Shown: in pieces, positions 12,868-38,550 of the stretch
Layout of the letters: every line of letters begins with the position of its first letter
How positions within the stretch are numbered: position 1 is the stretch's first letter
The notes under the pieces: model-generated
Databases searched by the model: none
What the model was told of the DNA's origin: nothing
What the model saw: only the letters and a program-made list of their open reading frames with translations
Made by a program: the position numbers and the translations under genes
NCBI RefSeq assembly: GCF_020906515.1
Contig: NC_085854.1
Span: 744,001 to 808,000 of the forward strand
DNA length: 64,000 nt
From: Vanrija pseudolonga
Taxonomy: Eukaryota > Basidiomycota > Tremellomycetes > Trichosporonales > Trichosporonaceae
Reading direction: 5' to 3'

Positions 12868-13641
12868 CTACACCACCACGAGAGCGAGGGCGGCAGCCCC
12901 AGCGAGCACCGCGCCGAGGTGCACCCCTGCTGCTGTGGGGGACGCAGCGCTCGACACGCCGTCGGTGCCGTACCCGACCCCGACGTGCAGAGAGTACGTC
13001 GGGTATCCGTTGTCTGGCGGGCCGCCGCCGTCCTGGATGGTGAACGAGTCGCTCTGCGCCAGGACGTCTGTGCCGTGTATCAGCCCGAGTTGCCCAGCCC
13101 GAAACTCACTGCTCTTGCCCGCCTCGACGAGCTGGAGGACGTAGCCTGACCCATAGGCCGCGCCGCCGAGCGCCGCGTCGACGACGTTGACTTGCGCCAC
13201 GCCCTTCGGGATGTCCTTGACGATCCGGACAGGCGCGGACAGCAGCGACGGGTTGGGTGTCGCCGTAGTCAGGATCAGGTCGACCGACACGTCCTGCTTC
13301 TTCCACCCCGCCTTGTTGTTGCCAGTGTAGTTGAGCGACCCTGCGTGCGGGGGTCAGTCTGTGCGCCGCGGAGCAGAGCAGGGGAGTGACGCCGTTCACG
13401 GCGACTCGCGAGCGGGCGACTCGACTCAACTCCACTCACAGCCAGCCGTGTGCGTCGGGGCATTGAAGAGCGCGGGATAGCTCGGCGCCGGGAGGGGGGC
13501 TTGCGCGCCGCCCCCACCGGGAGCGCTCGGCGCAGTGGGCGCACTGGGAGCGACGTCCGTCGTCGTTACCGCCGTGAACTGTGCCGTCGCCGCGGCGGCG
13601 AGGAGCGGCGCGAGGCGCACAAGGGTGCCGAGTATCCTCAT
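12868..13641 (-). CDS. Kre9/Knh1-like secreted cell-wall protein, probable GPI anchor (family member 1)
   Basis: Exons 13641-13440 and 13340-12868 give 224 residues. Signal peptide MRILGTLVRLAPLLAAAATAQ, then a Pro/Ala-rich stretch. The phase-1 intron splits a Trp codon (T|GG) to give GWSLNYTGNNKAGWKKQDV. The following domain has the Kre9/Knh1 pattern: an extracellular beta-sandwich with SGYVLQLVEAGKSSEF, HGTDVLAQSDSFTI closing it. The tail ends in a hydrophobic run (LAGAAALALVVV) typical of a GPI signal. Kre9/Knh1 proteins take part in beta-1,6-glucan assembly in yeasts; the role here is inferred from fold only. Of the six putative members this one matches the family best. Confidence 0.7.
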
Positions 13642-14434
13642 TGTGTCGGTGATGGGTGTTATGCGAGAGTGAGTGAGTGAACAGAGTGTCGAGGGTGGCA
13701 AGCGATGCGTGCTGTATAAGCAGCTTGCTTCTTCTCGCCCACGCACCCCGCTCCTCGCTCCCTCCTCCCTCCTCGCGTCCTCGCATCGTCAATCTTGACA
13801 ATCTTCTCGCGCGTGTGCCGTGTTTGGCACACTCACACCGCATTGATGCACGCCACCCAAACGGCTCGAGCGCGAGCGACGACAGTGGCAAGTGGCACGC
13901 ACGGCACAGGCGCCACGCGCGCGACAACAACAATACCACAAACAACATCCGCAGCGAGGCCACAATCCGCAGCGACAATGGAGCGTGCAGCGAGGTTACA
14001 GGCGACCTCCCGGCTGGTCAAAGGACATAAAGCAGGCATGATGACCCAGTCGTTCCCCATCTCTCCTTTGCCACCCTCCCCCTCCCCCACCACCCACCAC
14101 CATGCCCACCAAGCACACACACTACATCGACCTCCCATCCCACCCCCTCCGCGACCCGCTCACCCCGCGCATGCTCGCCGCCGTGGCAGTCATGCTGGCC
14201 TTTATCGGCGGCTGCGTCGTGGGGTCGTATGTGGGCGAGTATGTGTCATGGGCGTGGGCGTGAATGACGCCAGTAGGCTGCCGATAGTGCGGTTCCAGCA
14301 AACCCAGGCTGCATGTCTTGGCGCGCGGCGCGCTGCTGCGGACAAGTCCGCGATACGACGACGGCGATCACGCAAATACGTAACTCCCAACTCAAATCTC
14401 TCTCTGCTCTGTTTTGAATCAACCCAACACCACC
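13642..14434. promoter_or_regulatory. Divergent promoter region between two surface-protein genes
   Basis: The genes at 13641 (minus) and 14435 (plus) point away from each other, so both promoters lie in these 793 bp. A TATA-like GTATAAG occurs near 13714-13720. No other feature was recognised. Confidence 0.4.
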
Positions 14435-15171
14435 ATGCGCATCGCCGCTCTTCTTCTCCTCGCTGTGCCGTTCGCGTCGGCGCAGTCCGCCAGCGCGAAC
14501 GCGAGCGTCAGCGCCAGCCCCAGTCCCAGCGTCAGCATCAACTCCAGCGCGAGCACCAACGCCAGCAGCACGAGCTCGCAGTCCTCCCTCGGCCCGTCGC
14601 CTACCCCAGCCTCGGCGTCGTCCTCTACCCTGCCCGTACCAGTGCACCCCGGCGTGAGCATCACGACGCCCAACGCGACCACGTACTGTGAGTGTCGCGA
14701 CCGGGCGGTCGCCGCTAACAACCAGGGGTCAAGGGCAAGGGCTACAATCCGGCGTCGTGGACGCCTTTCGCGACCAACAACTCGGCCGCCCTGCCCAAGT
14801 TCAACCTCTGGCTCTCGCACGCCAACGTCTCGATGCTCGGCGCCGCGCCCAGTCTGATAGTGAACAACTACCTCCTGACCAAGGGCGGCCTCGACATTGC
14901 CGAAAACAACGCCAGCACGACCTTCTACGCCGGCCAGCTCGACTCGGTCGTGCCCGGCCCCGGGTTCGTCGCGGCGCTCATTAGCGCCGGGAACCTGTCC
15001 GACGTGTGGGCCGTGTCGGCGCCGTTTGAGATCAAGCCCGACGGCACCAAGCCGTTCGCGGACACCAAGCCCGGCGCAGCGGGCCGCCGCGCTGCGTTAC
15101 CCGCCAGCAACGGCGTCACGCTCCTCCTTGGCGGTGTGGGTGTGGTCGTCGGTGCCGCGCTCCTTGTTTAG
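14435..15171 (+). CDS. Secreted Kre9/Knh1-like protein, probable GPI anchor (family member 2)
   Basis: Exons 14435-14687 and 14726-15171 give 232 residues. Signal peptide MRIAALLLLAVPFASAQS, then a Ser/Asn/Ala-rich stretch with many N-S-S and N-A-S sequons, suggesting heavy glycosylation. The phase-1 intron again splits a Trp codon (TAC T|GG) giving TYWVKGKGYNPASWTPF. The domain closes with VWAVSAPFEIKPDGTKPF, nearly the same as VVAVSGQFEIKPTGTTPL in the gene at 16872-17559. The C-terminus LLLGGVGVVVGAALLV looks like a GPI signal. It is the only family member on the plus strand. Function inferred as cell-wall associated. Confidence 0.68.
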
Positions 15172-15376
15172 CGCGGCGAGCGCGCCATTGCAGCAGCGGT
15201 AGAGCACAGTACAACCTTACAGCGGTAGAGTGCGTGGGAAGGATACCATGCAGTATTATAGTCTACAAGATGCGTAATGTCCTATGTCATGGTCGTGGCA
15301 GGTGGGATGTCCCGGGTATGTCTGGTCATTCGCAGCAGCGTCGTCGTCACAAGCTTGGCCCGGCGTGGGGTGGGCC

Positions 15377-16476
15377 CTACGCCGCCGCCGCGACGCCAGC
15401 GAGCAGCGCGACCGCGGCGCCAATAACGGCCGTCGCGCCGGGGAAGCGCGGCTCGGCGCCGCTCTTGGGCTTCGTAAAGTTGTATGGCGGGGGGAGCTTC
15501 TCCGCGAAGCCGCGGAACTTGATCTCGAAGAACTGGGATGTGGCGTAGACGTCTGCGCGGAGTGAGCGGGGTACAGGCGCAGTGGCAGCCGCAACTTACG
15601 GCTGAGGTCGCTCGGGTCGACCATCATGACCATCCAGCCCCCGGCAGCCTGGCTACAATGTCAGCGCTGACACCACCGCACACTCACGCCGAGCTCGGGA
15701 CGCCAGAGTAGAACGACCCGTTGCCGCCGGGCAGCGTGTAGATGCCGTAGCTGTTCCTCGAGATGGCGAGGTCGCGGTTCACGAGGAGGAAGGTGACCTG
15801 CGTCGCTGGGTCCGGGGCGCCGGCGCCCGTGTCCCAGTTCCAGAGGGCGACCGAGTGGCCCGACTGGACCCCTGGGGGTGTTAGTGGCGCCGACAGAGAG
15901 CGGAGTAGTTGGCACAGAAGAGACGAGGTCGATCGAGGGCTGCGGAAAGACTCGCGGCGCCGACCGGAAGCCGAAGCCTGGGCTGCGGGACCGGGCGCCG
16001 TCGAGCGAGTGAGTGGACGCATGCCCGGTCCCCGAAGCTGCAGCAAGCTTCGCCCACCTCGCTCCCATCAGCGGTGATCACTCACAGTAGTCTGACGAGC
16101 CGGGCCAGGTGATGGCCACGCCGTTGCTCGTCTTGCCGGGGCTCGGGAGCGTCGTGTTGATGGTCGAGACGGCGCTCGTCGTGCTGCTCGGCACCGTGGT
16201 GTGGTTGCCAAACGTGCCGTTTGTCGGCGTGGGGAACGCCGTGCCGTTGAGCGAGAGCGTGCCGTTCGGGCTGAGCGTGAAGTTGCCAGATGGCGCGGGG
16301 ACGGCCGTGCTGTTGCTGTTGCCGTTGGCGTTGCCGCCGTTGTTCGTTGGTGCGGGCTGGTCCGAGCTGCTCGCGCCGTTGCCGTTCCCATTGCCGCCGT
16401 TGTTGCCGCCCGACGTCGAGCTCTGCGCCGCGGCCAGCAGCGGCAGGAGGAAAAACGAGAGTAGTGGTGTTCGCAT
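15377..16476 (-). CDS. Secreted Kre9/Knh1-like protein, Asn/Gly/Ser-rich, probable GPI anchor (family member 3)
   Basis: Four exons, 16476-16086, 15871-15688, 15652-15600 and 15552-15377, give 267 residues. Signal peptide MRTPLLSFFLLPLLAAAQ, then an Asn/Gly/Ser/Thr-rich region rich in N-G-T and N-F-T sequons. The first intron splits a Trp codon (TAC T|GG), giving DYWVQSGHSVALWNWD. The domain includes VTFLLVNRDLAISRNSYGIY and GGWMVMMVDPSD and ends ATSQFFEIKFRGF. A hydrophobic tail (VIGAAVALLAGVAAAA) follows a KPKSGAEPRFPG linker, as in a GPI signal. It shares the intron position and domain ending with its neighbours. Confidence 0.66.
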
Positions 16477-16871
16477 TGTCGTAGTGAGTGGTGTGTGTGA
16501 TGTTGACAACAAGTGCGGGCGGCGGGAGTCGTACGAAAAGGGGCTGGCTGAGAGTGGTGGTGGTGGAGGTTGGCCGCCGCGGCCGGCGCGAGGCACAGCT
16601 TGAAGGATTCCAGGCCGCCGCTGACTGCCGGCAACAGCAACGACAAAAACGACGACGACGGCCACAACAATGGAACGACACGGCTCAAGGCACGAGATCT
16701 CGATATCCAGATGATGAGATGGGTGGACGGGGCATGCAACCTGCCAGCGGTGGTGCGATGGCAACGCGCTGCGTCGCCTATTGTCGTGCTCGTCGTCGCC
16801 TGCGCCGCCGCTCCTGCCCAAAGATTATGTATACATGGCGTACAAGCTACATTATATGCGCCGGCCAGCGG
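16477..16871. other. Short intergenic region in the surface-protein cluster
   Basis: About 395 bp upstream of family member 3. It holds its promoter and the 3' end of the next gene; nothing else seen. Confidence 0.5.
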
Positions 16872-17559
16872 CTAGAGTAGGAGGGCAGCGGCGCCAGCAG
16901 CGGCGGCAGCGAGCGCTGCGCCGGGTATGGTGGCCCGCGACGCGCTGCTTGGCGGACGGCGCGTGTACTGCGGCGAGAGGGGCGTCGTGCCCGTCGGCTT
17001 GATCTCGAACTGGCCCGAGACGGCGACGACGTCTGGGCGTGTTAGCGGCGGCGTGCAGCGAGCGAGTGAGCGAGCGCAACGTACCAGAGTCGACGCCGGC
17101 CGAGGTGAGGAACAGAGTGTACCCCGTCGCAGGCGGTGCGCGGGCGACGATGCTGTTGTTTGCCGGGATGTCGATGGAGATCCACTGTGGTGGGGCTGGG
17201 AGATGTCAGTGTGGGCATGCGCGTCGCCGCTGGGGCCGGGGTCCTTTGTCCCACTCACAGTTGCTCGAGAGCAGCACGGGCGACGTGAACGCCGACACGA
17301 AGGGGTTGGTGATGAACAGGTCGGTCGAGAGGTTGACGCTGCGCCAGACTGCCGAGTTTTGCGCGCCGAGCACCCCTGGGCGTGTGTTAGCATGCTTGAC
17401 CCGCGCCGCGCCGCGCCGCGCGCACGCACAATACTCGTCGGGGGAGGGGAAGAGAAATGTCGTGAGGTTGCGGTTGTTGAGCTGGAGCGCGAGGGCCGGA
17501 GCAGCAGCAGCGAACAGCAGGACCAGCAGCAGCATTGCCGCGCGGGCGATAGCCGCCAT
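16872..17559 (-). CDS. Secreted Kre9/Knh1-like protein, probable GPI anchor (family member 4)
   Basis: Four exons, 17559-17430, 17375-17259, 17195-17085 and 17032-16872, give 172 residues. Signal peptide MAAIARAAMLLLVLLFAAAAPALA. Unlike its neighbours it has almost no Ser/Thr spacer: the domain begins within about 40 residues. The first intron (donor GTGCGT) splits a Trp codon (TAT T|GG) giving YWVLGAQNSAVWRSVN. The domain runs through ITNPFVSAFTSPVLL, WISIDIPANNS and ends VVAVSGQFEIKPTGTTPL. The tail PGAALAAAAAGAAALLL fits a GPI signal. Closest in wording to the plus-strand member at 14435. Confidence 0.66.
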
Positions 17560-17967
17560 GGCTGATAATGGTAGTGGGTAGAGAGTCTTGTCGAGAAAGA
17601 TTCGTGGGTGGGTGAAAGGAGACTGATGTGCATGCCGCGTGCCGCCGATAAGTAAGTGCGCGCGCTGCTCGCTTCTGGTATCGCTTGCTTGTCGTCGTCG
17701 TCGCTCGTCGCCCGCTGCGCTGCACAGCTCCCCTCTCCTTGCGCCGTCCGCCCGCAGCCGCTGGGGCCCACGAGTACAGTGGTGGCGCCGGCGTGGCACC
17801 TGTTTAGCCCGCCGGGGTCTATTATCGCTCTCGCTCTCTCGCGCCCTCGCCTCGGGCCTTTGCCCCTGCGCGGTCTGTCGTTGGCCCCACGCGAGACAGG
17901 GCCTGCACGAGCACACGGTTCTATTCATGCATTGTCCAGAGACCGAGGGCAGCACTCAGGATACTTG
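17560..17967. other. Intergenic region in the surface-protein cluster
   Basis: About 410 bp between family members 4 and 5. Overlapping frames on both strands are shadows. No feature recognised. Confidence 0.5.
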
Positions 17968-19204
17968 CTACAACAGTATCGTGGTCAGCAGCGCAATCCC
18001 GAAACCGGCAGCAGCAGCGACACTACGCCCTGCGCGCGTGCTGATGATGCGCGCGTGCGCGCCCGAGTCCTGCATGCTGGCAGCGACGGGCGGCGGGCTC
18101 ACCCCGCGCCCGAGGACGATAAAGGGGTCGGACGTGACCAGCACCTCTGCGTCGGTCGGCATCAGCATGGCCTCGTGTCGAGCCAGTCGGTACCCACCCT
18201 CGAAGCCCGCGGCGGCGGCCGCGTCAGCAAAGAACACGACGTATCCTCCCCCAGAGGGGAGGTTGGCGATGCCTCTTGTGCGGAAGCGCACGCGCAAGGT
18301 GCCGGGTGGCACTGGCGTTGTCAGCTCGCTCTCTCTTGCCGGCGGCACCACCCACCAGCGGCGGCCAGGAGACAGAGGTACGGCCGCGACGTGTCCGTGT
18401 GGTTAAGGTTCGCGAGGTACAGGTCTGCGGCCACGTCTAGCGGCCGCGAGAGGGTGACGTGCGCGTGCCGGCGTTCGAGCGTCCCTGTGTCGCGAGTCGG
18501 GAGCGGCGGCGCAGCAAGCGACGAGCAAAGGCCGGAAACGCAGGCACGCGGGCAAAGCGGCGGCGGCGGCGATAATATCGGCCGGTCAGTAAGCAGCAAT
18601 GTCAGCCAGCAGCCTCGCCACGCGCCACGCCACGCCACAACCACGTACAGCTCGTACTCGCGTTCGGGTAGGCAAAGGCCACGGGATCAGTAGTGGCCGG
18701 GACGATGGGCGGCGCGGAGCTCGGGTCTGGGGGCAGGCTGCTGCTCGAAGTGGGAGGGGGCAGCACGGTCGAGTTGGGCACCCAGTTGGGCAAGACGGTC
18801 GCGTTGCGCACGTCGGGCATGGTGCTTGGGGGCGTCGGTACGAGGGGGTGGAACGTGGTGGTGGTGGTTGCGTTGGCACAGGCGCTGGCTGTGGAGTTGC
18901 GCGACGCCGTGACGTTGGCGGGGAGGCTGTCGCCGACTGTGGTGATGAGCGATGAGGTGTTCGCGGTGCTCGGGACAGGCGGGGTCGGGTAGGGCACTGG
19001 CTCTGGGAACGAGATTGAGCCGGGGAGCGTTGGAGGAGGAGGAGAGGGCGTGGGAGGAGGAGCAGGAGGGGGAGAGGGCGTGGGATATGGCGACGACGAG
19101 GCGGCGGGCGCGGCGTCCTGCGCCGACGTGACTGGGAGAGAAGCGAGTATACACACGAGCAGGGAGACGAGGAAGAGAGCGAAGGTAGTTGGGGCTGGGG
19201 GCAT
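17968..19204 (-). CDS. Secreted Pro/Thr/Ser-rich Kre9/Knh1-like protein (family member 5)
   Basis: Exons 19204-18649, 18484-18356 and 18311-17968 give 342 residues. Signal peptide MPPAPTTFALFLVSLLVCILA, then a long Pro/Ser/Thr-rich stalk (about residues 30-185; runs such as SPPPAPPPTPSPPPP and many N-sequons). The first intron, longer than usual at 164 nt with donor GTACGT, splits a Trp codon (AGC T|GG) giving SCWTLERRHAHVTLS-type sequence. The domain has VAADLYLANLNHTDT, GGGYVVFFADAAAAAGFEGGY and ends VLVTSDPFIVLGRG. A hydrophobic C-terminus (VAAAAGFGIALLTTILL) fits a GPI signal. The weakest of the six for the domain call. Confidence 0.6.
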
Positions 19205-22117: not shown

Positions 22118-23332
22118 TTAGAGGACGAGGAAAGCCGTGAGCATCGCGAACGCGAGGGCCGCGCCGGCGCGGACCGGGGTCTTGATGTCAGCGGCCGACT
22201 TGGCCGAGGCCGAAGCCGACGCGGACGCAGAGGGCTTGGTCGACGAGGCAGAGCCGGCAGACGACTTGGCGCCCGAGGCGGAGGCAGACGCCGAGCCGGC
22301 AGCAGAGGGGTGGGCGGCGGCAGACGACGGGGCGGCAGCCTTCGAGGTGGGGAGGACGCCTGGATCTAGTTAGCGCTGTCGCTGATGCCCGTACTCACCC
22401 GAAGCGGAGGGGCCAGCAGCAGAGGCAGAGGGGCCAGCGCCGGTGGGAACAGCAGTGGGCTCGGCCGTGACGGCGGAGTCGATGGCAGATCCCGAGGCGG
22501 CATCCGAGGCGGCGGCGCCGGAGGCCGAAACGTCCGAGGCGGAGGCGGCGTCCGACGCAGAAGCGTCCGAAGGAGCAGCCGAGGCGTCCGAGGGGGCAGC
22601 GGCGGCGTCCGAGGCAGCGACGCCCGAGTCGGCGGCAGAGGCCGACGCGCCGGTGTCCTGGCGACGGTAGACGCGACGGTAGACGGTGTCGTCGGTCGAG
22701 TCGGCCTCGTCGGTCTCGTCGTCAGTGCCGTCGGTCTCATCGGTCTCGTCATCGGTGCCGTCAGTCACGTCGGTGGTGTCGTCGAGCGAGTCGGCCTCGT
22801 CGGTGGTGTCGTCGACCGAGTCGGCCTCGTCGGTGGTGTCGTCGACCGAGTCGGCCTCGTCGGTGGTGTCGTCGACCGAGTCGGCCTCGTCGGTGGTGTC
22901 GTCGACCGAGTCGGCCTCGTCGGTGGTGTCGTCGACCGAGTCGGCCTCGTCGGTGGTGTCGTCGACCGAGTCGGCCTCGTCGGTGGTGTCGTCGACCGAG
23001 TCGGCCTCGTCGGTGGTGTCGGCACCGTCGTCCTGGCGGCGCTCGAGGCTGTCGTCGGTGTCATCGGTGCCGTCGTCGGTGTCCTCGGTGTCGTCGGCAC
23101 CCTCGTCATCAGCGCCGTCGTCGTCGGTCGAGTCGTTGTAGTAGTCGGCCGCGTCGTCGACGGTGCCGTCATCAGCGCCGCCAACGACGGTCGTGTCGAC
23201 AACGTCGGGCGAGGTGGTGGTGTCGTCGACCGACGCGACCTCGTACGTCGTGTCGTCCTGGCGGGCGACGGCGCGCGCGGTAGCCGCGAGAGGGAGGACG
23301 AGGAGGGTGAGGGCCTTGGCGATAGCGACCAT
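22118..23332 (-). CDS. Asp/Thr/Ser-rich repeat surface protein, probable GPI anchor
   Basis: Exons 23332-22399 and 22359-22118 give 391 residues. Signal peptide MVAIAKALTLLVLPLAATARA. The body is strongly acidic, with about eight tandem copies of a ten-residue unit (DDTTDEADSV) encoded by a near-perfect 30-bp DNA repeat, flanked by degenerate DDTTDV/TDDETDE units. Dibasic RRQD motifs occur on both sides of the repeat (LERRQDD and VYRRQDTG), suggesting Kex2 processing. A Ser/Ala-rich stalk follows and the tail (AGAALAFAMLTAFLVL) fits a GPI signal. The intron is phase 1 at a Gly codon. The copy number is likely to vary between strains. No known family. Confidence 0.78.
22801..23010. repeat. 30-bp coding minisatellite, seven perfect tandem copies
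   Basis: The 30-bp unit beginning cggtggtgtcgtcgaccgag is repeated seven times without change, with partly diverged copies on either side. It encodes the acidic decapeptide repeat of the surrounding gene on the minus strand. Exact identity suggests recent expansion or ongoing homogenisation. Confidence 0.95.
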
Positions 23333-24595: not shown

Positions 24596-25237
24596 TCACG
24601 CCCACACAGCCCCAGCCACAGCCACAACGACGACCGCGACGCCGGCCGAGAGGGCACGCGCGCCGCTCTTCTTCGGGATGCCAGACGGGTCGGCGAGGAG
24701 CGGCGGGGGCGCAGGCGACACGGCCGCAGCGCTGGTGGTGGTAGGCGCCGCGGTGGAGGTCGGCGCCGGGGTGCTCGACGACGACGTGGTAGCGTTGGCC
24801 ATGACGGTTGCGACGGGAAGGACGGGCAGCTGGGTAATGGGCGAGGTGACGACCTGGCCGGGCGGGAGGTTGAGGCCTGGGTCGTGTCAGCGCTTGTTGG
24901 CGCCATGCGGCCACTCACCGACGGTGGAGGTGAGGAAGTCGGGCGCCTCGACGTCGGGGACGACGCCAGAGTCGACACCGCCGCCTCTGCTGTCGAGGGT
25001 CGCGGCGTCGGCCGACGAGGCATCGGCGGCGGGGGCGGGGGCGGGGTCCGCAGGCGCAGCGTCAGTCGCAGCGGGGTCGACTGAGGAGCGTCAGCTGGAG
25101 TTGAAGCTCCCGGCAGCCTTACCACTGCCGCCATCCTGGCGGACGACGAGTTCGGCGATCCCCTCGCACGGAGCGGCGGAGGCGAGAAGCGCAAGGGCAG
25201 CGAGGGCGATCACGACGAGCTTGGCAAAGGTACGCAT
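24596..25237 (-). CDS. Small secreted Ala/Pro/Ser/Thr-rich protein with APDF motif, probable GPI anchor
   Basis: Exons 25237-25123, 25080-24919 and 24876-24596 give 185 residues. Signal peptide MRTFAKLVVIALAALALLASA, then CEGIAELVVRQDGGSG with an RQD motif shared with other genes of the cluster. An Ala/Pro/Asp stretch leads to GVVPDVEAPDFLTSTVG, closely like GILPDIQAPDYNFSTTG in the neighbouring gene. A Ser/Thr/Pro region and a hydrophobic end (ALSAGVAVVVVAVAGAVWA) after KKSG fit a GPI signal. Both introns are phase 1 with GTAAGG and GTGAGT donors. Function unknown. Confidence 0.68.
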
Positions 25238-25503
25238 GTTGTTGGTGTAATGTCGTGACTGAGGTGCACAGACACCAAACTGAGGTCACCCCCTAAATAC
25301 ATGTCGCGGCTGCCCGCACGCCCAGGTGCTGCTCACGGCCTGCGAGCACGGCGATGTGGGAAGCTGTTGTCCGTGTGCACGGTGCGCGGCGGGCAGCGGC
25401 CTGCTGCACAGCGGCCAGTGTGCGTGGCGCACACGCCAGAGAAAGACTGCATAGCATCCGACTGACCCAATCAAGCAAGTGTCCATCTCACAGTGTGTGT
25501 GTG

Positions 25504-25989
25504 CTAGAGCGCAATGACCGCCGCGAGTGAAAGGAGGAGGAGCAGCGCCGCAGGCCGGAGGGCGTCGGCTGCGCTCTTGGACGGCGAGGGCGCCGCCGAG
25601 CTGGAGTGTGCGGATACAGACGCGGAGGGGGCTGCACCCGCGCCGCCGCCGCTGGACGTCGGGAGTGCCGGGGAATTCGTGACGGTTACCACCTTGCCCG
25701 TGAGGGAACCCGTGTCCGATATCACCTGGGTCGAGAGCGGCAAGCTCGCGTTGTCGAACACGGCGAGGGTGTGGGTGATTGCCGCGCCGGGGATGGAGTA
25801 CGATCCTGCGGCAGGCGTCAGTTCAGTCGACTCGGAGCGCCACACACCCGTCGTGCTGAAGTTGTAGTCGGGCGCTTGGATGTCGGGCAGGATACCGTTG
25901 TCGACTGACGGCGAGGCATCGGCCGCGGGCGCGGCCGCGATGAGCGGGAGGAGGGGGAGCGCGGCGAGGGGGAGGAGGGTGAGGCGCAT
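25504..25989 (-). CDS. Small secreted protein with APDY motif, probable GPI anchor
   Basis: Single exon, 161 residues. Signal peptide MRLTLLPLAALPLLPLIAAAP. The motif GILPDIQAPDYNFSTTG follows, then a folded-looking segment (SIPGAAITHTLAVFDNASL, TGKVVTVTNSPALP) and a Ser/Ala/Pro stalk. The tail (ALRPAALLLLLSLAAVIAL) fits a GPI signal. It lies head-to-tail with the 24596-25237 gene, to which it appears related through the motif and build. A TATA-like sequence lies about 60 bp upstream. Function unknown. Confidence 0.7.
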   Translation of the reverse strand: MRLTLLPLAALPLLPLIAAAPAADASPSVDNGILPDIQAPDYNFSTTGVWRSESTELTPAAGSYSIPGAAITHTLAVFDNASLPLSTQVISDTGSLTGKVVTVTNSPALPTSSGGGAGAAPSASVSAHSSSAAPSPSKSAADALRPAALLLLLSLAAVIAL

Positions 25990-26808: not shown

Positions 26809-28434
26809 CTACGCCCGCTGGAACGAAGGGTAGCCGGCCTCGGCCTCCTCGTTACACTTGGTCCTGTACACGCCCACGCCGCCAATGTACGACAAGAGGC
26901 GGCGGGGCTTGCCGGGGACATTGGAGCCCATGTACCACGAGTCGGTCTTGGTGACGAGCGTGGCATTCGCAATGCCGTCGTGGTGCTCGACCCAGGCGTC
27001 CTCGCCCGCCTGCGTGGGCTCGATGGTCGTCTTGCCGTCCTTCTTGAGGTCCTCGATCGCGCCCGTGATCCACTCGGTCTGCTGCTGGAGACACGTCGTC
27101 ATGTTGCACAGGGCCGCACTCGGCGCAAGGGGCACGGCCGTCGTCAGCAGGTTCGGGTAGCCGTGCTTGCCCAGCCCCATGGTCGTGCGGATGTCCTTGT
27201 TCCACTCGTCGGTGAGGCTGCGGCCGCCGCGCCCGCGCACGTCGATGCTCGACAGCGCGCCCGAGCCCGCGTCAAAGCCAGTCGCCATGATGATCACGTC
27301 GAGCTCGTACTCTGTCCCGTCCTTGAGCTTGAGGCCCTTGTCCGTGAACGACACAATCGGGTTGTTCTTGACGCTGACGGCCGTGACGTTGTCGCGGAGG
27401 TACACCTCGAGGTAGTTGCGCTCGAGGGGCACGCGGTGGGTGCCAAAGCCGTAGTCCTCAAACTTGGGCACGAGCACCTCGAGGAGGTGCGGGTCGTGCT
27501 TGAGGCGGTCCTTCATCTTGCCCGCGACAAAGTCGGACACCAGCTTGGAGCACTCGGGGTCGGTGAAGATCTCGGGGAAGGTGGCGAGCCAGAACTTGAG
27601 CGACCCGTCCTCGTAGTTGTCCTCCATGAGCTTCTGGCGTTCGGCGGAGTCGGTGGTGATGGCGTACGTGGTGGTAAAGTCGTGCTCGAACCCGGTAAAC
27701 GTGTTGACGATACGCTCCTTGATCTCCTTGAAGCGGCCCTTGTACTCCTCGGCCTCGGCCTGCCCGATGGCGGGGTTCTTCATCGGCAGCGTGTACTGCG
27801 GCGTGCGGGCGAACACAGTCATGTGGCCCGACTCGGGGGCCATGGTCTGGATGACCTGGATGCCCGTGGCGCCGATACCGACGACGCCAACCTTCTTGCC
27901 CTTGACGTCGACGCCCGCGGCGGGGTAGCGCGAAGTGTACACGACCTCGCCCTTGAACTTGTCCTTGTTGGGGAAGAGGTCGGTGATGGGCGCGGACAGC
28001 ATGCCGCCGCACGAGATGAAGAACTGCGAGTCGATAATGTCGCCCGCGCTCGTCTTGATGAGCCACCGGCCGCGGCCCTCGTCGTAGTGCGCGCTCGTGA
28101 TGCGCGCGTTGAACTTGATGTCCTTGCGCAGGTCGAGCTTGTCGGTGATGTAGTGCAGCCAGCGCTCAATCTCGGGCTGGCCGGGGAACTTTTCGCTCCA
28201 CGTCCACCCCTTGTACAGGTCTTCGTCGAACAGGTACTGGTAGATGTAGGCCTCCGAGTCGAACCGCGCGCCGGGGTACCGGTTCCAGTACCACGTCCCG
28301 CCGACGTCGCCGCCCTGCTCGAACACGCGCACCTTGTAGCCAGCCTTGCGGAGCTGGTACAGCTGGTACAGGCCGGCGACGCCAGCGCCGAGCACGACCG
28401 CGTCGAGCGTCTCGGTGGGGTTGGTGCCAGTCAT
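26809..28434 (-). CDS. Flavin-containing Baeyer-Villiger-type monooxygenase (cyclohexanone monooxygenase family)
   Basis: Single exon, 541 residues, normal for class B flavoprotein monooxygenases. FAD Rossmann motif GAGVAG at 16-21; the BVMO block GGTWYWNRYPGARFD at 45-59; NADPH Rossmann motif GIGATG at 186-191. The fingerprint region reads FKGEVVYTSRYP at 160-171, where the family consensus has F-x-G-x3-H-x3-(W)-P, so the usual His and Trp are both Tyr here. The late block LDVIIMATGFD is also present. It would insert oxygen into a ketone or aldehyde, or oxidise a heteroatom, using NADPH and O2. Substrate unknown; the changed fingerprint makes a non-classical subgroup likely. Confidence 0.88.
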   Translation of the reverse strand: MTGTNPTETLDAVVLGAGVAGLYQLYQLRKAGYKVRVFEQGGDVGGTWYWNRYPGARFDSEAYIYQYLFDEDLYKGWTWSEKFPGQPEIERWLHYITDKLDLRKDIKFNARITSAHYDEGRGRWLIKTSAGDIIDSQFFISCGGMLSAPITDLFPNKDKFKGEVVYTSRYPAAGVDVKGKKVGVVGIGATGIQVIQTMAPESGHMTVFARTPQYTLPMKNPAIGQAEAEEYKGRFKEIKERIVNTFTGFEHDFTTTYAITTDSAERQKLMEDNYEDGSLKFWLATFPEIFTDPECSKLVSDFVAGKMKDRLKHDPHLLEVLVPKFEDYGFGTHRVPLERNYLEVYLRDNVTAVSVKNNPIVSFTDKGLKLKDGTEYELDVIIMATGFDAGSGALSSIDVRGRGGRSLTDEWNKDIRTTMGLGKHGYPNLLTTAVPLAPSAALCNMTTCLQQQTEWITGAIEDLKKDGKTTIEPTQAGEDAWVEHHDGIANATLVTKTDSWYMGSNVPGKPRRLLSYIGGVGVYRTKCNEEAEAGYPSFQRA

Positions 28435-29698: not shown

Positions 29699-30460
29699 AT
29701 GGCAAGCACGACGACGACGAGCAGCACAGTTCCGAAAGGCGCCGAGTCGCCGCCGCCGACGGCCTCGCCCATCCCCAAAGTCCTCGCGTTCGACGTCTTT
29801 GGCACCGTGGTCGACTGGCACGGGAGCATCGCGCGCGAGGCGGAGCGCATCGTGCCCGGCCTCGATGGGGACGCGTTCGCGCTCGCCTGGCGCGAAGGAT
29901 ACCGGCCAGCCATGGCGCGCACGATGGCCTCTGGACAGTTCCGCGTGCTCGACGAGCTGCACCTCGAGATCCTGCGCGACATTGCGCCGCGCTTCGGCCT
30001 GGCCCTCACCCCCGAGCAGGAAGACGAGCTCAACAAGGCATGGCACCGGCTCGACCCTTGGCCTGATAGCGCGGCGGCGCTCGCGCGCCTCAAGACCAAG
30101 TTCATCATCACGCCCCTGTCCAACGGCGGCATCGGGCTGCTCACGCACATGGCCAAGCGCGGCGGCCTGCCGTGGGACGTCGTGCTGTGCGCCGAGGTGT
30201 TCCAGGCGTACAAGCCCGCGCACCGCGTGTACCAGGGCGTCGGGCGCGTGCTCGGCGTCCCGATTGCCGAGGTCATGATGGTCGCGACGCACCACGACGA
30301 CCTCGACGCCGCGCAGGACGCCGGGTTGCAGACGGCGTACATTGCCCGCCCGCTCGAGTTTGGCGCAAAGCATACCGAGCTCAAGGACTCGGAGAGGAAG
30401 GAGAGGCATCCGCTCCACTTTGACTCTATACATGGCCTCGCAGACCACTTTGGGTGTTAG
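29699..30460 (+). CDS. HAD-superfamily hydrolase, haloacid dehalogenase type II-like
   Basis: Single exon, 253 residues. After a Ser/Thr/Pro-rich N-terminus comes FDVFGTVVDW with the nucleophile Asp32, a cap domain (ALAWREGYRPAM...LHLEILRDIAPRFGL), the second motif TPLSNGGIG, the third-motif lysine in AYKPAHRVY, and the acidic motif ATHHDDLDAAQDAGL. These match (S)-2-haloacid dehalogenase (type II), which hydrolyses a 2-halo acid to a hydroxy acid. Fungal members are common and their real substrates are rarely known, so a general phosphatase or dehalogenase activity is equally possible. It converges on the thioesterase gene. Confidence 0.85.
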   Translation: MASTTTTSSTVPKGAESPPPTASPIPKVLAFDVFGTVVDWHGSIAREAERIVPGLDGDAFALAWREGYRPAMARTMASGQFRVLDELHLEILRDIAPRFGLALTPEQEDELNKAWHRLDPWPDSAAALARLKTKFIITPLSNGGIGLLTHMAKRGGLPWDVVLCAEVFQAYKPAHRVYQGVGRVLGVPIAEVMMVATHHDDLDAAQDAGLQTAYIARPLEFGAKHTELKDSERKERHPLHFDSIHGLADHFGC

Positions 30461-30745: not shown

Positions 30746-31948
30746 CTACAGCTTCGGCCCCTCCCTGCGCGGCTTCTTGCCCGCCTGGCGCGCACGCACG
30801 ACGCCCTCCTGGCTCGTAGCGGCGATGAGCACGCCGTCCTGGGTGTACACTCGGCCGTTGAGGACGCCGCGGCCTGTCGTGAGGTCGACGGCGATGGCGT
30901 CGATGACGTGCAGCACAGGCTGCGTGCCGTCGTAGGATTCGGGGAAGGGGTAGTAGTGGATCGTGTGGTCGATTGTTGCCTGGGGCGTGTGTCAGTGATT
31001 TTGCAGGCAGGACTGCGAGCCAGCCAGCCAGTCGCCACTCACAACCATGCCCAGCTTGGGGTCCGACGTGGCCGACAGCCCGACTGTGCGGCCGGCCGTC
31101 GCGACAGTCTGCGAGTCGGTAATGTACCCGATCATGGCGCGCGCCTCGTTTGGCGAGACCTTCCTGCCGCCAAACAGGGGCTGGAGCCACACTGCGCGCT
31201 GAGCCGAGTTCTTGCCGGCCTGCGCGCGCGCGCCGACAGCCATCAGAGGGCGCACGATCACCCGGTCAGCGAGGACGGCCTTGCGCGCCTCCGCGTCGGT
31301 GGGGTTGATGCGCAGCCCGAAATCCGCCATGGTCGTCACGTAGTCCTTCCACCTGTTGTCGTCCCGCGACGCCTCTTCAAAGCTCAGGATGTCGGACGGC
31401 ATCGGCCGCTGGTACCGCGTCGAGAAGGGCACCGGGCCGTCCTCTGGTGGCGTCGCGCCGGTGACCTTGGCCGCGATCTCCGGGGCGATGGGTACCGGCG
31501 GGAGCGTGAAGCTCGCCATGAGGGTGAAGATTGTCTCCGAGTTCTGGATCGCGTGCACGAGTCTGCGCGCGTGTGAGTGAGTGCAGGGGAGTTACGCCCA
31601 CCTCGTAGAGTAGCTCTTGCCCTCGCGCAGCCGCTCGACGCAGTAGGTCACCGGTAGGCGGGAGTCGCACCTGGGGTCGGGTTAGTAACACCGCCCACAC
31701 CTCGCGTCGCCCGGCGACAGCCCCACGCACGGAAGAAGAAAGTAGCAGTGCTGCGAGTGCAGGTCCTTGCCCTCGACCGTGCTGACGGCCGCCATGAGCG
31801 CCTGCCCGATGACCTGGCCGCCGTACACGCCGCGGTTGGACGGCGGCGTCCAGAGGTTCTGCGCCTGGAAGGCCTCGAGCCCGAGCAGCCGGGGGACGGG
31901 CTTGATCATGAGCGCGTGGTGCATCGTGTTGTCTGTCTGCTGTGCCAT
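30746..31948 (-). CDS. Acyl-CoA thioesterase II (TesB/ACOT8 type), probably peroxisomal
   Basis: Exons 31948-31731, 31670-31602, 31562-31043 and 30979-30746 give 346 residues, the usual length of this double-hotdog family. Hotdog 1 shows NRGVYGGQVIGQALMAA and LHSQHCYFLLPCDSRLPVTY, the latter rebuilt by splicing with donor GTGCGT. Hotdog 2 has TIDHTIHYYPFPE and RVYTQDGVLIAATSQEGVVR, which carries the catalytic Gln region. It hydrolyses acyl-CoAs to free acid and CoA in fatty-acid breakdown. The C-terminus is PKL, a PTS1-like tripeptide that fits peroxisomal import. Confidence 0.92.
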
Positions 31949-32411: not shown

Positions 32412-32908
32412 CTACAGCGCCGCGACGAGCACCACAACGAGGACCGCAGCGAGCATCGGCGGCGCGCGGAGGGCCTCGCCGCGCGAGTGGGACGCGGAAG
32501 GCACGGGCGTCGACGAGCCCGCGGCGGAGGGCGGCGCGGCGCTCGACACGGCGGCGCCGGTCGTCGTCGTCGGCACCGCCGCGACGCTGGTGCTACCCCC
32601 CGCAGCGGACGGGGTGATGAGCGTCGTCGACACGGGGAGGTGTGCGCCGGACGCCGATGCGGCACCGGCGGACGGCTTTGCGGCCGATGCCGAGCCCGAC
32701 GCCGGCGCCGGCGCTGCAGAGCCACTAGACACCGCGGCGCTCACGGTGCTCGCGCCTGCCCTTGTCAGCTCTGCTGCTGCCCGCACCCACCAGCCATGGT
32801 GCTCGGGTTGAAATCCGGCGCCATGAACGTGTCGACTGTGCCCGAGTCTGGCGTGGCGCCGAGGGCGAGGGGGAGGAGGGGGAGAGCGAGGAGGAGGGCG
32901 GCGCGCAT
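32412..32908 (-). CDS. Small secreted Ser/Ala-rich protein with APDF motif, probable GPI anchor
   Basis: Exons 32908-32791 and 32755-32412 give 153 residues. Signal peptide MRAALLLALPLLPLALG, then TPDSGTVDTFMAPDFNPSTMAG, which resembles the PDVEAPDFLTSTVG and PDIQAPDYNFSTTG segments of the genes at 24596 and 25504. The intron is phase 1 at the Gly codon directly after the motif, the same relative place as in the 24596 gene. The rest is a Ser/Ala/Pro/Thr stalk ending in a hydrophobic run (PPMLAAVLVVVLVAAL), a likely GPI signal. Function unknown. Confidence 0.65.
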
Positions 32909-32984
32909 CGTGCTGGGGTTGTTGTTGTTCTGCTGTTGACGAAGAAGTGCTGTTGTCCTCCTCGCTCACCTCGTCGCTGCCACT

Positions 32985-32991
32985 CATATAC
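32985..32991 (-). promoter_or_regulatory. TATA-like element upstream of the small APDF gene
   Basis: TATATGA on the minus strand, about 80 bp before the start codon at 32908. Position and sequence fit a TATA box; no experimental support. Confidence 0.35.
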
Positions 32992-33382: not shown

Positions 33383-35143
33383 CTAAATACTCATGAGGGC
33401 CATGAGGCGGAACTCTGTGCCGCCGTTGGGGTCGTCGGTCTCCTTCAGCAGCTGGGAGCGTCAGTACCACGACGCATGTCCCCGCACGTACCTCGCACTT
33501 GAGCGTGTGCTCGCCTGGAGGCAACGAATCCCATCGATCAGACCGCCCGATATTGTACGGCAGTTCCCAGGCCGCCGCAATCTTCTTCTTCGTGCCCGCC
33601 ACACCGACGACCTCGCACTCGAGCGTGCCGAGGCCGAACTGGTACGAGCGGAGGAAGTAGAGGAAGACTGTGCCGCGCGAGACTGTGAAGTCGAACTCGA
33701 TCGTCGAGCCGGGCGCGTCGGCAACGAGGTACTTCTTGTCCTTCCACGCCCACTCGCGCCACCCGCTCTGGGCCTTGGGCACGAGCGGGAACTTGTCCGA
33801 GCTGGTCGTGATGCACGTCGGCCTGAGACGCGGCGCCGGGTGCCACGGGTCGTACTTTGTCATGAGGAGGTTGGGGAATATCTCCTCGGAGGGGTACAGC
33901 TTGTCGGTTGTCCAGCCGCGCGTGTCGCGCTCGAGGCGGTCCATCTCGCACAGCTGCAGCTCGAGGTACGCGATCATCATGTTGGCGGCGAGCTCGTGGC
34001 CGCGCCCGCTGAGGTGGCGGATGTCGACGCCCTCGAGCGTCTCGGGGTTGGGGTCGGGCACCTCTTTGTGGAACCACTCGAGGATGGGCTTCTTGTCGCG
34101 CGCGAAGAACGGCGCGAGCGCATTGCGCAGCGTCAGTGTCGGCACGTCGTAGAACTGCGCCACGCCATGGTTGACCTCGGCGCCCATTGCCATCTCGTCA
34201 AACTTGAGCGCGAAGAGGCTGGCGCGTCAGCGGCGGGGTTCGGTAGCGCGTCAACTCACTTGAACACGAGCACGCCGGGCTCGTGGTCGGACTCGAGGAG
34301 CTGGCGGAGCAGCAGCTCAAAGTTGACTATTGTGGTCATGGCCGGTGGGTCGTTGATACCTGCCAAAGGGTTAGACACCTGGGAAATCTCCACTCCCGCG
34401 CGCCACTCACCGAGCTCGACGACGACAAGGTCAGCATCCGCGGGCACATGCAGCTGGCTGCACATGGAGAAGTAGTCGGCGCCTGGGAATCGTCAGCCGC
34501 GTTCTCCATCTGATGCCCACCTCGTGCCGGCTGCGCGCCGTTGACATAGACGTTGGTGTCGGCCGGCCGCTTGGCGGGGTCGTACACGCTGCCCCCAGCC
34601 GCAGGGAACGTGGCGTTGAGCCACGCAAACACGCGCGAGTGCAGGTTGAGGTCCGAGTAGGCTTTGGGCTCTTCGTCCTTGAGCCCGTGGCCCATGGACA
34701 CGGAGCCGCCGATCGCGGCCAGCGTGAACGGCTTGCCGGCGCGCATGCGGGCGAGCGCGCGCCGCAGGCGGTGGTTCGTGCCGGCGTAGGACACGAGGCG
34801 GGTCATCGCGTCGGCGCTGGGTGGTGTTAGCTACGAGCGAGCGACAGCTAGAGACGTACCCCCACTCGGCGCAGAGGCTCTTGCCCACCGGGCCGGCGGT
34901 GCAGATCGAGCATGGCGGCGGTGGTGGGGGCGGAGGTGGTGGTGGGGGTGGTGGTGGCGCCGGTGCTGCTGCCTCGTGTGGTGTCACTGCCAGTAGTGCC
35001 TCTCGGTGTGCCGCGTCGTGGTCGCGGGATAACGCGTGCCGCCAGTAGTCTGCGCTATCGGGCCGCTGGAAGAGCATGATGGTGACTACTGCGGCGTAGA
35101 GGGCCACGCCGAGGCGCAGGAGGTTGCGCCGGCGGTCGAGCAT
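33383..35143 (-). CDS. Type II membrane protein with SGNH/GDSL hydrolase-like domain
   Basis: Six exons, 35143-34860, 34816-34521, 34482-34411, 34359-34260, 34218-33492 and 33451-33383, give 515 residues. A short basic N-terminus (MLDRRRNLLR) and one membrane segment (LGVALYAAVVTIMLF) predict a Golgi or plasma-membrane type II protein, followed by a Pro run encoded by a GC-rich repeat near 34918-34960. The SGNH blocks are visible: IGGSVSMGHG (Ser133), ELGIND (Gly218-Asp221, formed by splicing) and DIRHLSGRGH (Asp316, His319). A C-terminal beta-rich region follows (FDFTVSRGTVFLYFLRSY). It would be an esterase or acyltransferase acting on surface glycans; the substrate is unknown. Confidence 0.75.
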
Positions 35144-35946
35144 TGTCGATCGAGTGTGGCTAGAGGGAAGCAGGGACAGAGGTGTGTGCGCCGGTACGGG
35201 ACGTTGTTGTCAACGCGACAAGCGACAAGAGAGATAACATTCAACATTGCGCGGCAACGACGTGGTGCGTTGTCTTGTCGTGGGCAGGCAGGCGCTGGCT
35301 GCAGTCAGCTGGCAGGCGTCCTGGCGGCGGTGCAGATGGGCGCGAGGTGTGTGGAAAGAAGGAACGGCAATGCAGGGTGTGGTATGAGACAAAAATGGTG
35401 CTAGTCGCCAGGGAGATCGGCCGCCCCCTTCCTTTGGGTTCATTCAACAGACACGGGGGTGTGCCCAGTCCCTACCGCGGATGAGGGCAAACGACGTACA
35501 GCGCAAGAGGCAAAGGCTCTCCTTGTCACCCAGTTACACCTGGGATACCGTAAGAGATCCAGACGCGGGGAGACGGCGGTCTGCCTCGAATCCTGGCGCA
35601 GCAGGTCCCAATTCAGGGAGGTCAGCATCAATTGTCAGTACTGGGACGACGCAGCGGAAATAGACATGAACAGTTTCATTTCTCGTGAGGGTGTGGGTGT
35701 CGTGGCCGTCTAGAATCCGTGCTGCCATGCGGCTACAAGGGAGGGTGGTGAAAGGTGGTGTGTGAGGCGGTGAGGGGCTGGCATTGGGATGCTTATTGTT
35801 GGCTTGCGTTGGCCGCATAGGTGGCTAACTTTGTAACTTGTCTTCCCTGGAACGCTGGACGACAGTTTCAGGGGGCTTGATTGAAGGAAAGGGTCAGCGG
35901 CGGCGATAACAAGAGCAGCCACGGCCAAATACGTACCTGGAGTGGC
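35144..35946. other. Intergenic region upstream of the SGNH gene
   Basis: About 800 bp. It includes a lower-GC stretch near 35600-35850. No gene seen. Confidence 0.5.
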
Positions 35947-36588
35947 TTAGAGAGCGAGCGCAGCGGCAACACCGGCGATCACGAGCGAGACCGAGCCAGC
36001 GATGGCCTCGCCAGACGAGGGCTTGCCGGAGGCCGAGGCGGAGGCGCTCGCGTGCGAGGTCGAGGCCGAGCCGGAGGCGGAGCCCGAGCCAGCGGCGTGC
36101 GCGGAGACCGACGAGACGGCCGAGGCGCCCGCAGCGCCAGCCGACGAAACGTGCGAGGCGCCGGCGGCGGCGCCAGAGGCGGCACCGGAGGCGGCTGTGA
36201 GGGTCAGCTCCGCTCTGTGTTGAATGTGGCGAGCGTGTGGCTAACGGCCGCGATTCAAGGACTCACCAGCAGCACCGCCAGACGAGACGGCCGAAGCGGC
36301 ACCAGCAGCGCCGCCAGCAGCAGGGCTGGTGGTGGTCGCGACGACGCCACCCGAGCCACCAGCACCGCCGGCACCGCCAGCGCCGCCCGAGGGGCCGGTG
36401 CCGTCCTCGCCGTCGCTGCCGGGGAGGCCGTCAGCGCCGCCGCTGGGGGCAGCGGTGGGCTCGGCGCCGGCGTCAGCGCCAGAGGCATCGACGCCCGTGG
36501 GGTCGGCAGCGCCGCCCGACGCGTCGGCCGACGACTGGGCGAGGGCGATGGGGAGGAGGAGAGCGATGAGGGCCTTGGTGACGAGCAT
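35947..36588 (-). CDS. Secreted Gly/Ala/Ser-rich protein, probable GPI anchor
   Basis: Exons 36588-36267 and 36194-35947 give 189 residues. Signal peptide MLVTKALIALLLPIALAQS. The mature part is Gly/Ala/Ser-rich with an acidic start (SSADASGGAADPTG) and a short collagen-like stretch (GLPGSDGEDGTGPSGGAGG), then AASGAASGAAAGAS and SGSASGSAST repeats. The hydrophobic C-terminus (AGSVSLVIAGVAAALAL) fits a GPI signal. The intron is phase 1 at an Ala codon. The composition links it loosely to the collagen-like protein of this window; function unknown. Confidence 0.7.
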
Positions 36589-36687
36589 TGTGGCTGTGTG
36601 GTGTTGTGTTGTTGGGTTACAGGAAAGAAAGGACGTGAGGAAGGAAGGAAGTGTGGATGAGGAGAGATGAGGGCGTTGCTTGGGGGG

Positions 36688-36694
36688 CTTTATA
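36688..36694 (-). promoter_or_regulatory. TATA box upstream of the Gly/Ala/Ser-rich gene
   Basis: TATAAAG on the minus strand, about 100 bp before the start codon at 36588. This is the clearest TATA element in the window and suggests a strongly regulated or highly expressed gene. Confidence 0.55.
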
Positions 36695-37731
36695 TGTGTG
36701 CAGGTCGCGGTCGCGTTGGGCGCTTGTTGACCGACGCGTTGGTGGTGTGGGTGGGTCTGTCGCGAGGGAAGGCGAGGAAGGTGAGCAGCGACACGGAGGG
36801 CTGACGACGGCGTCCTCGACAATCTGACACACGCTGCGGCGCAAAATAGAACTAGAAGCGCCCTGTTTCTGTCTGCGCTATGCATGCACACCGACGACGA
36901 CGATGACTGCTGCTGGCCGCCCTTGTTTACGCCGTTCCCACCATTCCTGCAGACGCACGCGACAAGGGGGTCAAGTTTGGCCGCAGCCGTTGGTACCGAC
37001 GGGCGCGTCGACGGCGGCACGGCGGCGGATGGCGGCTGCTGGCGGCTGGTCCGCCGCCCCGCTGCCCAAACGATTGACGCAGTGTTTTGCCTGACGACAT
37101 GGGCTACAGGCAGGCGGTGCAAGTAGCGTTGTTGGGTGCTGACTGGAAGCAGCGACGAGGCGACGACGACGACAACAACAGCACCCTAAAGCACGACACG
37201 ACGACACGCGACCAGGGACTAGCCGTCAAAACAAGGACCACCCCTCCACTGCGACTACTGCGACCGGTGCGACAATTGACAACTTGAGACACGCTTGCAG
37301 TTTGATGACATCACGGGGGTCCGAGGGGGAGGGGGGCAACTCGCAACGACGCAACCCTCCTTCCCCTCGCGTGCCGTCGTGCGTCGTGACACATGTCCAA
37401 ACGAACAAAGCCCCCCGTTCGTGTCTGACCTGAGCTAGAATCTCTAAAGGCGTCACACCTTCACCGCCTTGATTGATTGAATGTGCCCATTCAGTTAGAG
37501 GCACAGGGGTTGGCACAAGTTCGGCACGACTGGCCCCGTCAATGATGATGATGACACGCGACGACGCGACGCGACGTCACACTGGTGGAGCCGGTGGAGG
37601 TGGTCTGGTCGCCGCAGCGCATCCAACACCGCCATTTTCTCTTCTCTCGCAGCAAGTCAAGCTTTGCATTGCATTAACCCGGAGCAGCAGAAACCCAACG
37701 AGACGACTCGGTTCGACGCCACGCGGACATC
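36695..37731. other. Intergenic region in the surface-protein cluster
   Basis: About 1.0 kb with no recognisable gene; both strands carry only short biased frames. Region near 37140-37210 is CGA/ACA-rich. Confidence 0.5.
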
Positions 37732-38550
37732 TTAGAAGGCAGCAGCGCCGACGGCGGCAATGATGGCAGCAGCGACGCTCACGCCGGCGACCTTGCCGGC
37801 CGAGCTGGGCTTGGACGTGGCCGTAGCGGACGCCGACGCACCCGACGCCGAGTCCGACGCGCCCGCAGACGAGTTGCCAGGCTTGGCGGTGCTCGAGAGG
37901 GGCGTGGCCGCCGCGAGGACGTTGAAGCCGCCCGAAGTCGCGATGTTGTCTTGCGTCGTCAGCGTGCCGCGCCGGAGCACTAACTCACTGATGGGGTTGC
38001 CGACGGGCGTGAGGAAGACGTAGTAGTTGCTGCCGGGCTTGGCGCCGGACGCGATCAGCTTGTCGCCGGGGTTGAAGCTGTTGGTGTTTGGGGGCACTGG
38101 GATGCGTGAGCGGTCGCACACGGGAGTACGGCTTACGGTTCGACGCCAGGAGGTACGTCTTGCCGCTGGGGATGAGGCCGGGCGCGTCGTTGGCGAGGTA
38201 CAGGTCGAGCGCCTGGTTAATGGGCGTCCACGAGACGATGTTGGGCTGGCCAATCTGCCCTGCGGCGTGAGCTAACCCCAGGCGGCAGAGTACCCACAGA
38301 ACTGGTTGAAGAGCGGGGCCGTGAACTGGACCGTGCCGATGACGGACGTGCTGCTCGGCGCCGCGGCGGCCGAGGTGGTCGCGACCGCCGAGGGAGTGAT
38401 GACCGACACGGCTGCGGCCGAGTCGGACGGCGCGGCGACCGCCGACGACGAGGCCGCGACGGCGTCCGAGGACGAGGCGGCGGCAGCTTGGCGCTGGAAG
38501 ACGCCCGGGGCGGCAGCGACGAGCGGGAGGAGAAGGAGCGTGGTGAGCAT
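37732..38550 (-). CDS. Kre9/Knh1-like secreted protein, probable GPI anchor (family member 6)
   Basis: Four exons, 38550-38298, 38259-38137, 38096-37989 and 37949-37732, give 233 residues. Signal peptide MLTTLLLLPLVAAAPG then FQRQ, and an Ala/Ser/Val-rich spacer. The first intron splits a Trp codon (TTC T|GG) exactly as in members 1-5, giving NQFWQIGQPNIVSWTPINQ, which fits the Kre9/Knh1 opening pattern (x-G-x-P-x-x-I-S-W-T). It continues LDLYLANDAPGLIPSG, PGSNYYVFLTPVG and ends NNIATSGGFNV. A Ser/Ala stalk and VAAAIIAAVGAAAF tail fit a GPI signal. It lies about 18.5 kb from member 5, so the family is not strictly contiguous. Confidence 0.7.

Follow-up and report, generated by a model that had tools for sequence, protein, structure and literature searches.

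A dense cluster of putative GPI-anchored surface-protein genes in Vanrija pseudolonga, probably grown by tandem duplication

Why should twelve genes for surface-type proteins lie side by side within 25.7 kb of one contig of the yeast Vanrija pseudolonga? The cluster occupies positions 12,868-38,550 of the window, by which we mean the whole 64,000-base stretch of DNA that was analysed (C6:744001-808000; C1, C2 and so on denote contigs, and positions given without a contig are counted from the first base of the window). In our view the region is likely to be a tandem array of genes for glycosylphosphatidylinositol (GPI)-anchored cell-wall proteins, old and at the level of the genus, in which two founder genes were duplicated in place and which also holds three low-complexity surface genes.

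The cluster and its density of surface-type ends

Sixteen genes were recognised in the span, 12 of surface type and four others. Apart from K14, which is on the plus strand, the surface-type genes (eleven) all lie on the minus strand. Six have the K build, three are A genes, and C21, D23 and G36 complete the set:

K13, 12868..13641, minus strand: signal-like start, Ser/Thr/Pro stalk, KNH-like domain and GPI-like tail; 3 exons, 210 residues; identical to LOC62_06G008087
K14, 14435..15171, plus strand: K build; 2 exons, 232 residues; sole plus-strand member; identical to LOC62_06G008088
K15, 15377..16476, minus strand: K build; 4 exons, 267 residues; splice sites agree with V. albida Q8F55_006602 (second half)
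K16, 16872..17559, minus strand: K build, stalk nearly absent; 4 exons, 172 residues; domain modelled as a beta-sandwich; identical to LOC62_06G008090
K18, 17968..19204, minus strand: K build, Pro-rich stalk; 4 exons, 325 residues; V. albida orthologue Q8F55_006603
C21, 19417..21165, minus strand: collagen-like surface protein with 105 unbroken Gly-X-Y triplets and GPI-like tail; 1 exon, 582 residues; PF01391 at 190.2 bits
D23, 22118..23332, minus strand: Asp/Thr-rich repeat protein (30-base unit, 8.5 copies) with GPI-like tail; 2 exons, 391 residues
A25, 24596..25237, minus strand: APD-motif protein with GPI-like tail; 3 exons, 185 residues; within LOC62_06G008094
A26, 25504..25989, minus strand: APD-motif protein with GPI-like tail; 2 exons, 147 residues; first 86 residues identical to LOC62_06G008094
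A33, 32412..32908, minus strand: APD-motif protein with GPI-like tail; 2 exons, 153 residues
G36, 35947..36588, minus strand: Gly/Ala/Ser-rich surface protein, six Gly-X-Y triplets in a row, GPI-like tail; 2 exons, 189 residues
K38, 37732..38550, minus strand: KNH-like build, Ser/Thr/Ala stretches flanking the domain on both sides; 4 exons, 233 residues; V. albida orthologue Q8F55_006596

A preliminary description of this DNA had counted eleven such genes of three builds (Kre9/KNH-like, APD-motif and repeat proteins), making up most of 26 kb. The surface-type set and the three builds are supported, the count is 12, and "most" is right by gene number (12 of the 16 recognised) and wrong by length, the 12 genes covering 10,586 of 25,683 bases (41%).

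Thirteen gene models were spliced by hand, of which K13, K18 and A26 were later revised. Besides the identity of K13, K14 and K16 with NCBI proteins of V. pseudolonga, the A25 model is contained unchanged within its NCBI counterpart, and for K15, K18 and K38 the splicing is backed by Vanrija albida proteins in a comparison by eye. The strain may be DUCC4014, an assembly of which is mentioned in PMC12820176. The NCBI numbers from K13 to K38 run from 8087 to 8101; these 15 genes equal our 12 plus 4 minus one, A26 and A25 being one annotation (8094), with NCBI tags inferred for genes returned by no search. That annotation makes A26 and A25 (24596-25989) a single protein, and K16 and K15 are likewise fused in V. 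albida. The NCBI model of K38 has 7 extra residues at intron 1 relative to our own model and to V. albida.

By composition, all 12 proteins combine the two features that mark GPI-anchored wall proteins, as had been claimed for eleven genes: a signal-like hydrophobic start (best 9-residue mean 2.1-3.3 on the Kyte-Doolittle scale) and a hydrophobic C-terminus, uncharged over its last 14 residues. GPI anchoring of the 12 is predicted from this composition. Under the strictest of three settings, 12 GPI-like ends were found inside the cluster, precisely those of the 12 models (the detection rules were framed after the models were known, so that this recall is not independent), one in the remaining 38 kb of the window and three in a background sample of 200 kb (20 stretches, all from the single contig C1). 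These figures, 12 ends in 25.9 kb versus 3 in 200 kb (Poisson P ~2e-14), correspond to a density about 30 times that of the sample (0.15 per 10 kb) and bear out the earlier claim of a dense surface-gene cluster. The loosest setting gave 14 ends inside, 2 of them not models, 2 outside and 17 in 200 kb (P ~1e-7), and a slightly stricter earlier version of the rule gave 10 ends in the window versus 2 in 200 kb. Start-plus-end pairs under the earlier rule, which missed K18, A25, A26 and K38 and chose a wrong upstream start for K13 and K14, numbered 8 inside the cluster, with none elsewhere in the window and none in the 200-kb sample.

The DNA has a G+C content of ~66%, at which spurious Ala/Leu/Ser-rich frames could mimic signal and GPI ends, and one such false end does occur: the single outside end, at 40,649, lies opposite a frame read as a peptidase. 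That the cluster as a whole is a gene-model artefact of this kind is nevertheless very improbable. The same rule gives just 3 ends in 200 kb, three models are NCBI proteins, and four have V. albida orthologues.

One further gene, S9 (9030..9439, minus strand), had been counted with the set at 9 kb. Its signal-like start is confirmed; its C-terminal tail is charged, which places it outside the GPI-like set. With a second hydrophobic stretch ahead of the charged tail, it looks like a single-pass rather than a GPI-anchored protein.

Two gene families and the K domain

Because nine of the 12 genes fall into two families, K (six genes) and A (three genes), the genes are not all unrelated. The earlier view of unrelated builds was overstated, as both families seem to have been duplicated locally and K genes are present at other genomic loci too.

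In alignments, K38 is 16-32% identical to the other K proteins, and a search of the whole genome (24.87 Mb in nine contigs) with K16 retrieves K14 at E 1.6e-4. All six K genes of the window have their first intron within the same Trp codon; a second intron position is common to K16, K18 and K38 (three of the six), and a third, before [NHDE]-[VN]-x-[AV]-x-S, recurs in five of the six. Across the genome, the DNA pattern for F-E-I-K-P-x-G matches 8 times (reversed control, 0): in K14, in K16, at three C4 sites no more than 1.8 kb apart, and once each on C2, C7 and C5. For S-x-x-F-E-I-K, searched with two kinds of Ser codon, there were 12 matches (control 0) and 2 matches (control 1), among them one in a further C2 gene, which lies 2.5 kb away from the other. 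Since pattern matches lie on C2, C4 and C7, the K family is not confined to the window. Its members there are a triplet, a pair and a probable single gene:

C4:2861896-2863664 (L043, L044, L045, L050): K-family triplet, three genes in 1.8 kb that form another tandem group; two of the genes continue into GPI-like tails
C2:990665-993700 (L007, L042): K-family pair, neighbouring genes with an unsplit YWV motif
C7:760713 (L049): frame containing SATSKPFEIKPKG, with a hydrophobic stretch that closes with Arg near the end; probably a solitary K gene

The C5 match was rejected as a K gene, as it sits in an unrelated frame. At C6:740220-740240, 3.8 kb to the left of the window, a match to S-x-x-F-E-I-K may mark a further K gene close to the cluster.

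A profile built from the six window genes and three V. albida orthologues scores three of the non-window members at 29.5-36.2 bits, the best of 300 shuffles reaching 8.0. The Trp codon is unsplit in all four of the C2 and C4 members whose Trp region was read, which fits duplication of one founder inside the window.

For the A family, the pattern A-P-D-[FY]-x-x-[ST]-T has seven genome matches (reversed control, four). Three of the seven are A25, A26 and A33, which lie within 8 kb. An intron stands behind the APD motif in all three genes, one residue later in A33; that of A26, 42 bases long, follows directly after the motif, as in A25.

The K proteins share with Kre9/KNH proteins (PF10342) a signal-like start, a Ser/Thr-rich stretch and a GPI-like tail, and may share with them a small predicted immunoglobulin (Ig)-like domain, which ends in x-x-S-x-x-F-x-[IV]. 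They are built like KNH proteins and probably a distant branch of them; they score below the Pfam cut-off and are not filed as members. None of the six window proteins matches PF10342 even at E 1 (gathering cut-off 24.6 bits), and a PF10342 search of the genome found four places, none of them inside the window. V. albida K38 matches positions 2-94 of the 94 at 18.4 bits, under the cut-off, and among three C2 and C4 members one C4 gene reaches 16.0 bits, the other two having no match. The K profile scores L001, one of the four Kre9_KNH proteins of the same genome, at 20.6 bits (300 shuffles, at most 8.0). AlphaFold models of K16 and of V. albida K38 (seven sequences each) are beta-sandwiches, and their best matches among solved structures, with middling scores, are Ig-, Fn3-, SKICH- and carbohydrate-binding-type modules; a small Ig-like fold is predicted for the K domain.

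Other comparisons count against this kinship. The remaining three KNH proteins of the genome do not stand out with the K profile, and a profile-profile comparison of K with the four KNH domains was negative, scoring 15.1 versus 18.1 for the reversed K profile (15.1 was equalled or exceeded in 1 of 100 column shuffles). One C4 member favours DUF4453 (E 0.012) over KNH (E 0.021), and the best weak Pfam match of a C2 member is the Glyco_hyd_101C beta-sandwich (E 0.0023); a second C4 gene is without any weak Pfam match. The layout differs as well. Whereas the low-complexity stretch of L001 follows the domain, it lies mainly before the domain in K13, K14, K15 and K18; the KNH placement of the domain at the mature N-terminus is found in K16, while in K13, K14, K15, K18 and K38 a stalk precedes it. 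Unlike Kre9/KNH genes, the K genes have an intron within the Trp codon of the domain.

The part of a review cited here describes the specific roles of beta-1,6-glucan genes of the Kre9/KNH kind as mostly hypothetical (PMC7389562), and a passage of another study reports KRE9 homologues (PF05390, a different domain) only in Ascomycota among the fungi it analysed (PMC5872309). The K family would show that an Ig-like wall domain can stay under the family models and yet form gene clusters, and its common intron positions offer a handle for finding the family in other species.

Conservation, upstream sequences and the origin of the array

When K38 was searched against a database of 5.8 billion proteins (51 candidates scored), only its own V. 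pseudolonga protein and V. albida Q8F55_006596 were found. The latter keeps domain and tail, the last 29 residues being the same as in K38 by eye. With a joined query, two more V. albida proteins were found: Q8F55_006602, an annotation that fuses K16 with K15, and 006603, orthologous to K18. If the gene numbers of V. albida follow the chromosome, its four K orthologues fall within a run of eight numbers. K14 has a further relative in the database (P0005). No relative from a named genus other than Vanrija was found in three protein searches, of which the broader two are weak on absence: one of these scored 7,998 candidates and missed K16 (172 residues) and V. albida K18 (198 residues), both found by the other. 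The UniRef names of V. albida P0002 (FAS1 domain-containing) and P0009 (galactose-oxidase-like early set domain) refer to domains that Pfam shows in neither case, and none is precomputed.

Besides the single-contig background of the density estimate, several results weigh against an old array shared within the genus. Gene order differs in V. albida, where K38 lies on the opposite side of K15-K16-K18, and the joined query gave no V. albida match to its K14, A25 and A26 pieces, in a search that also missed V. pseudolonga K15. A single-sequence search of the genome with K38 retrieved only itself and no paralogue. Of the introns in our models, 21 of 22 are in phase 1; because nearly all are, phase says little and the K intron case rests on position. 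A whole-protein search with A26 reaches A25 only at E 0.34, so kinship within the A family rests on motif, intron and place. Conservation in related species, to which the preliminary description had looked for a check, is supported in part, in a second Vanrija species.

The cluster might also be a neutral leftover of tandem duplication and chance, in which paralogues pile up where they were born and the three repeat genes are bystanders. We regard this as possible, if doubtful. The low identity of the K paralogues to K38 indicates that they are old, and the C4 triplet and C2 pair show the same duplication habit. Yet C21, D23, G36 and the A family, none of them evidently paralogous to K, share the same 25.7 kb, at the low background density of GPI-like ends given above, and both tail and domain of K38 have been kept in V. 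albida.

A co-regulated cell-wall or matrix module, with genes kept together by joint expression in one state (hypha, biofilm, spore) and building one coat, is a rather unlikely explanation. It would account for a content that is mixed yet all of surface type and for the proximity of the four K orthologues in V. albida. Upstream sequences were compared over the 500 bases before each of the 12 genes, against 200 random sets not matched for promoter position. GCAGCGAC is present upstream of 7 of the 12 genes, a count reached by 3% of the random sets. Repeat-type 9-mers, CACACACAC and ACGACGACG among them, occur upstream of 6 (0.5% of the sets). Both counts exceed those of most random sets. These words are, however, weak or simple repeats; no clear common motif was found in the 500 bases, only weak hints, and this comparison, itself a weak one, does not support the claim of co-regulation. 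The presence of K genes at other loci, the rearranged order in V. albida and the occurrence of at least two unrelated metabolic genes (flavin monooxygenase-like, FMO-like, and haloacid dehalogenase-like, HAD-like) inside the cluster also speak against such a module.

Under the preferred reading, an old tandem array, the six K and three A genes would each have arisen by tandem duplication of one founder, with C21, D23 and G36 as low-complexity surface genes also held in the array. Each protein would enter the endoplasmic reticulum by its signal peptide, exchange the hydrophobic tail for a GPI anchor, be glycosylated on its Ser/Thr/Asn-rich stretch and reach the wall or the plasma membrane as end point. 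There, a small Ig-like domain of the K proteins would most likely act as a wall-matrix or glycan-contacting module, as in Kre9/KNH proteins; C21 may contribute a collagen-like rod, and D23 may provide an acidic layer. We infer anchoring, wall location and function of these proteins from their sequences.

Tandem clusters of secreted-protein genes are known in fungi, for example the clusters of Ustilago maydis and the adhesin families of yeast and Candida. As in those clusters, fast-changing secreted or GPI proteins that lack known domains seem to have been duplicated locally in V. pseudolonga. Unlike there, two duplicated families and repeat proteins are mixed here in one internal stretch of a contig. 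While clusters of secreted or GPI-protein genes are in themselves a known kind, the families and their mixture look new. No published account of this cluster was found by title or abstract start, which is no proof of absence. To our knowledge, the wall proteins of Trichosporonales are little catalogued. A relative, Trichosporon asahii, infects people, as stated in the section cited here (PMC12864254).

Collagen-like and repeat proteins, and neighbouring genes

In the 105 triplets of C21, X is mostly Ala, Ser or Lys and Y mostly Ala, Asp, Pro or Lys. Its PF01391 score lies far above the collagen cut-off of 27.2 bits, and Pfam gave no other domain at E 1. The 8.5 copies of the D23 unit are near-identical, and the six Gly-X-Y triplets of G36 are consecutive.

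It is quite unlikely, in our estimate, that these proteins belong to a genus-specific coat module, in which K proteins, APD proteins, the 105-triplet collagen rod and the acidic repeat protein are co-produced and build a single extracellular layer. Such a module would amount to a fungal version of a collagen-plus-Ig matrix; we know of no described equivalent. If the mixed array were co-expressed, it would provide a compact system for studying how a fungal outer coat with a collagen-like part is built.

Fungal collagen-like surface proteins are known, such as MCL1 of Metarhizium. Like MCL1, C21 has a signal, a long Gly-X-Y region and a GPI-like tail; it differs in its unbroken Ala/Ser/Lys/Asp-rich triplets and in having no other Pfam domain at the threshold used. 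The host of C21, again in distinction from MCL1, is a yeast of a genus that the cited part of one source describes as saprotrophic (PMC12820176). Six other places in the genome score above the collagen cut-off, and two of these contain an internal stop. A collagen-like open frame of 511 residues lies at C6:1210237-1210719, with single weaker collagen-like places on C1, C2, C3, C4 and C7.

The four other genes inside the span are as follows:

26809..28434, minus strand: FMO-like gene (Pfam, 48.2 bits)
29702..30460, plus strand: HAD-like hydrolase gene (Pfam, 41.4 bits)
30992..31948 (ends approximate), minus strand: candidate acyl-CoA thioesterase-like gene
33383..35143, minus strand: GDSL/SGNH-like gene (PF13472 at 19.9 bits, below the cut-off of 32.9)

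The gene at 30992..31948 is one that we take to be acyl-CoA thioesterase-like; Pfam gave nothing on a 174-residue piece of it. Left of the cluster lies a gene for a carbohydrate kinase with FGGY domains (Pfam), which is read as a glycerol kinase. The GDSL/SGNH-like protein has a hydrophobic N-terminal segment and a polyproline run and could act on wall sugars.

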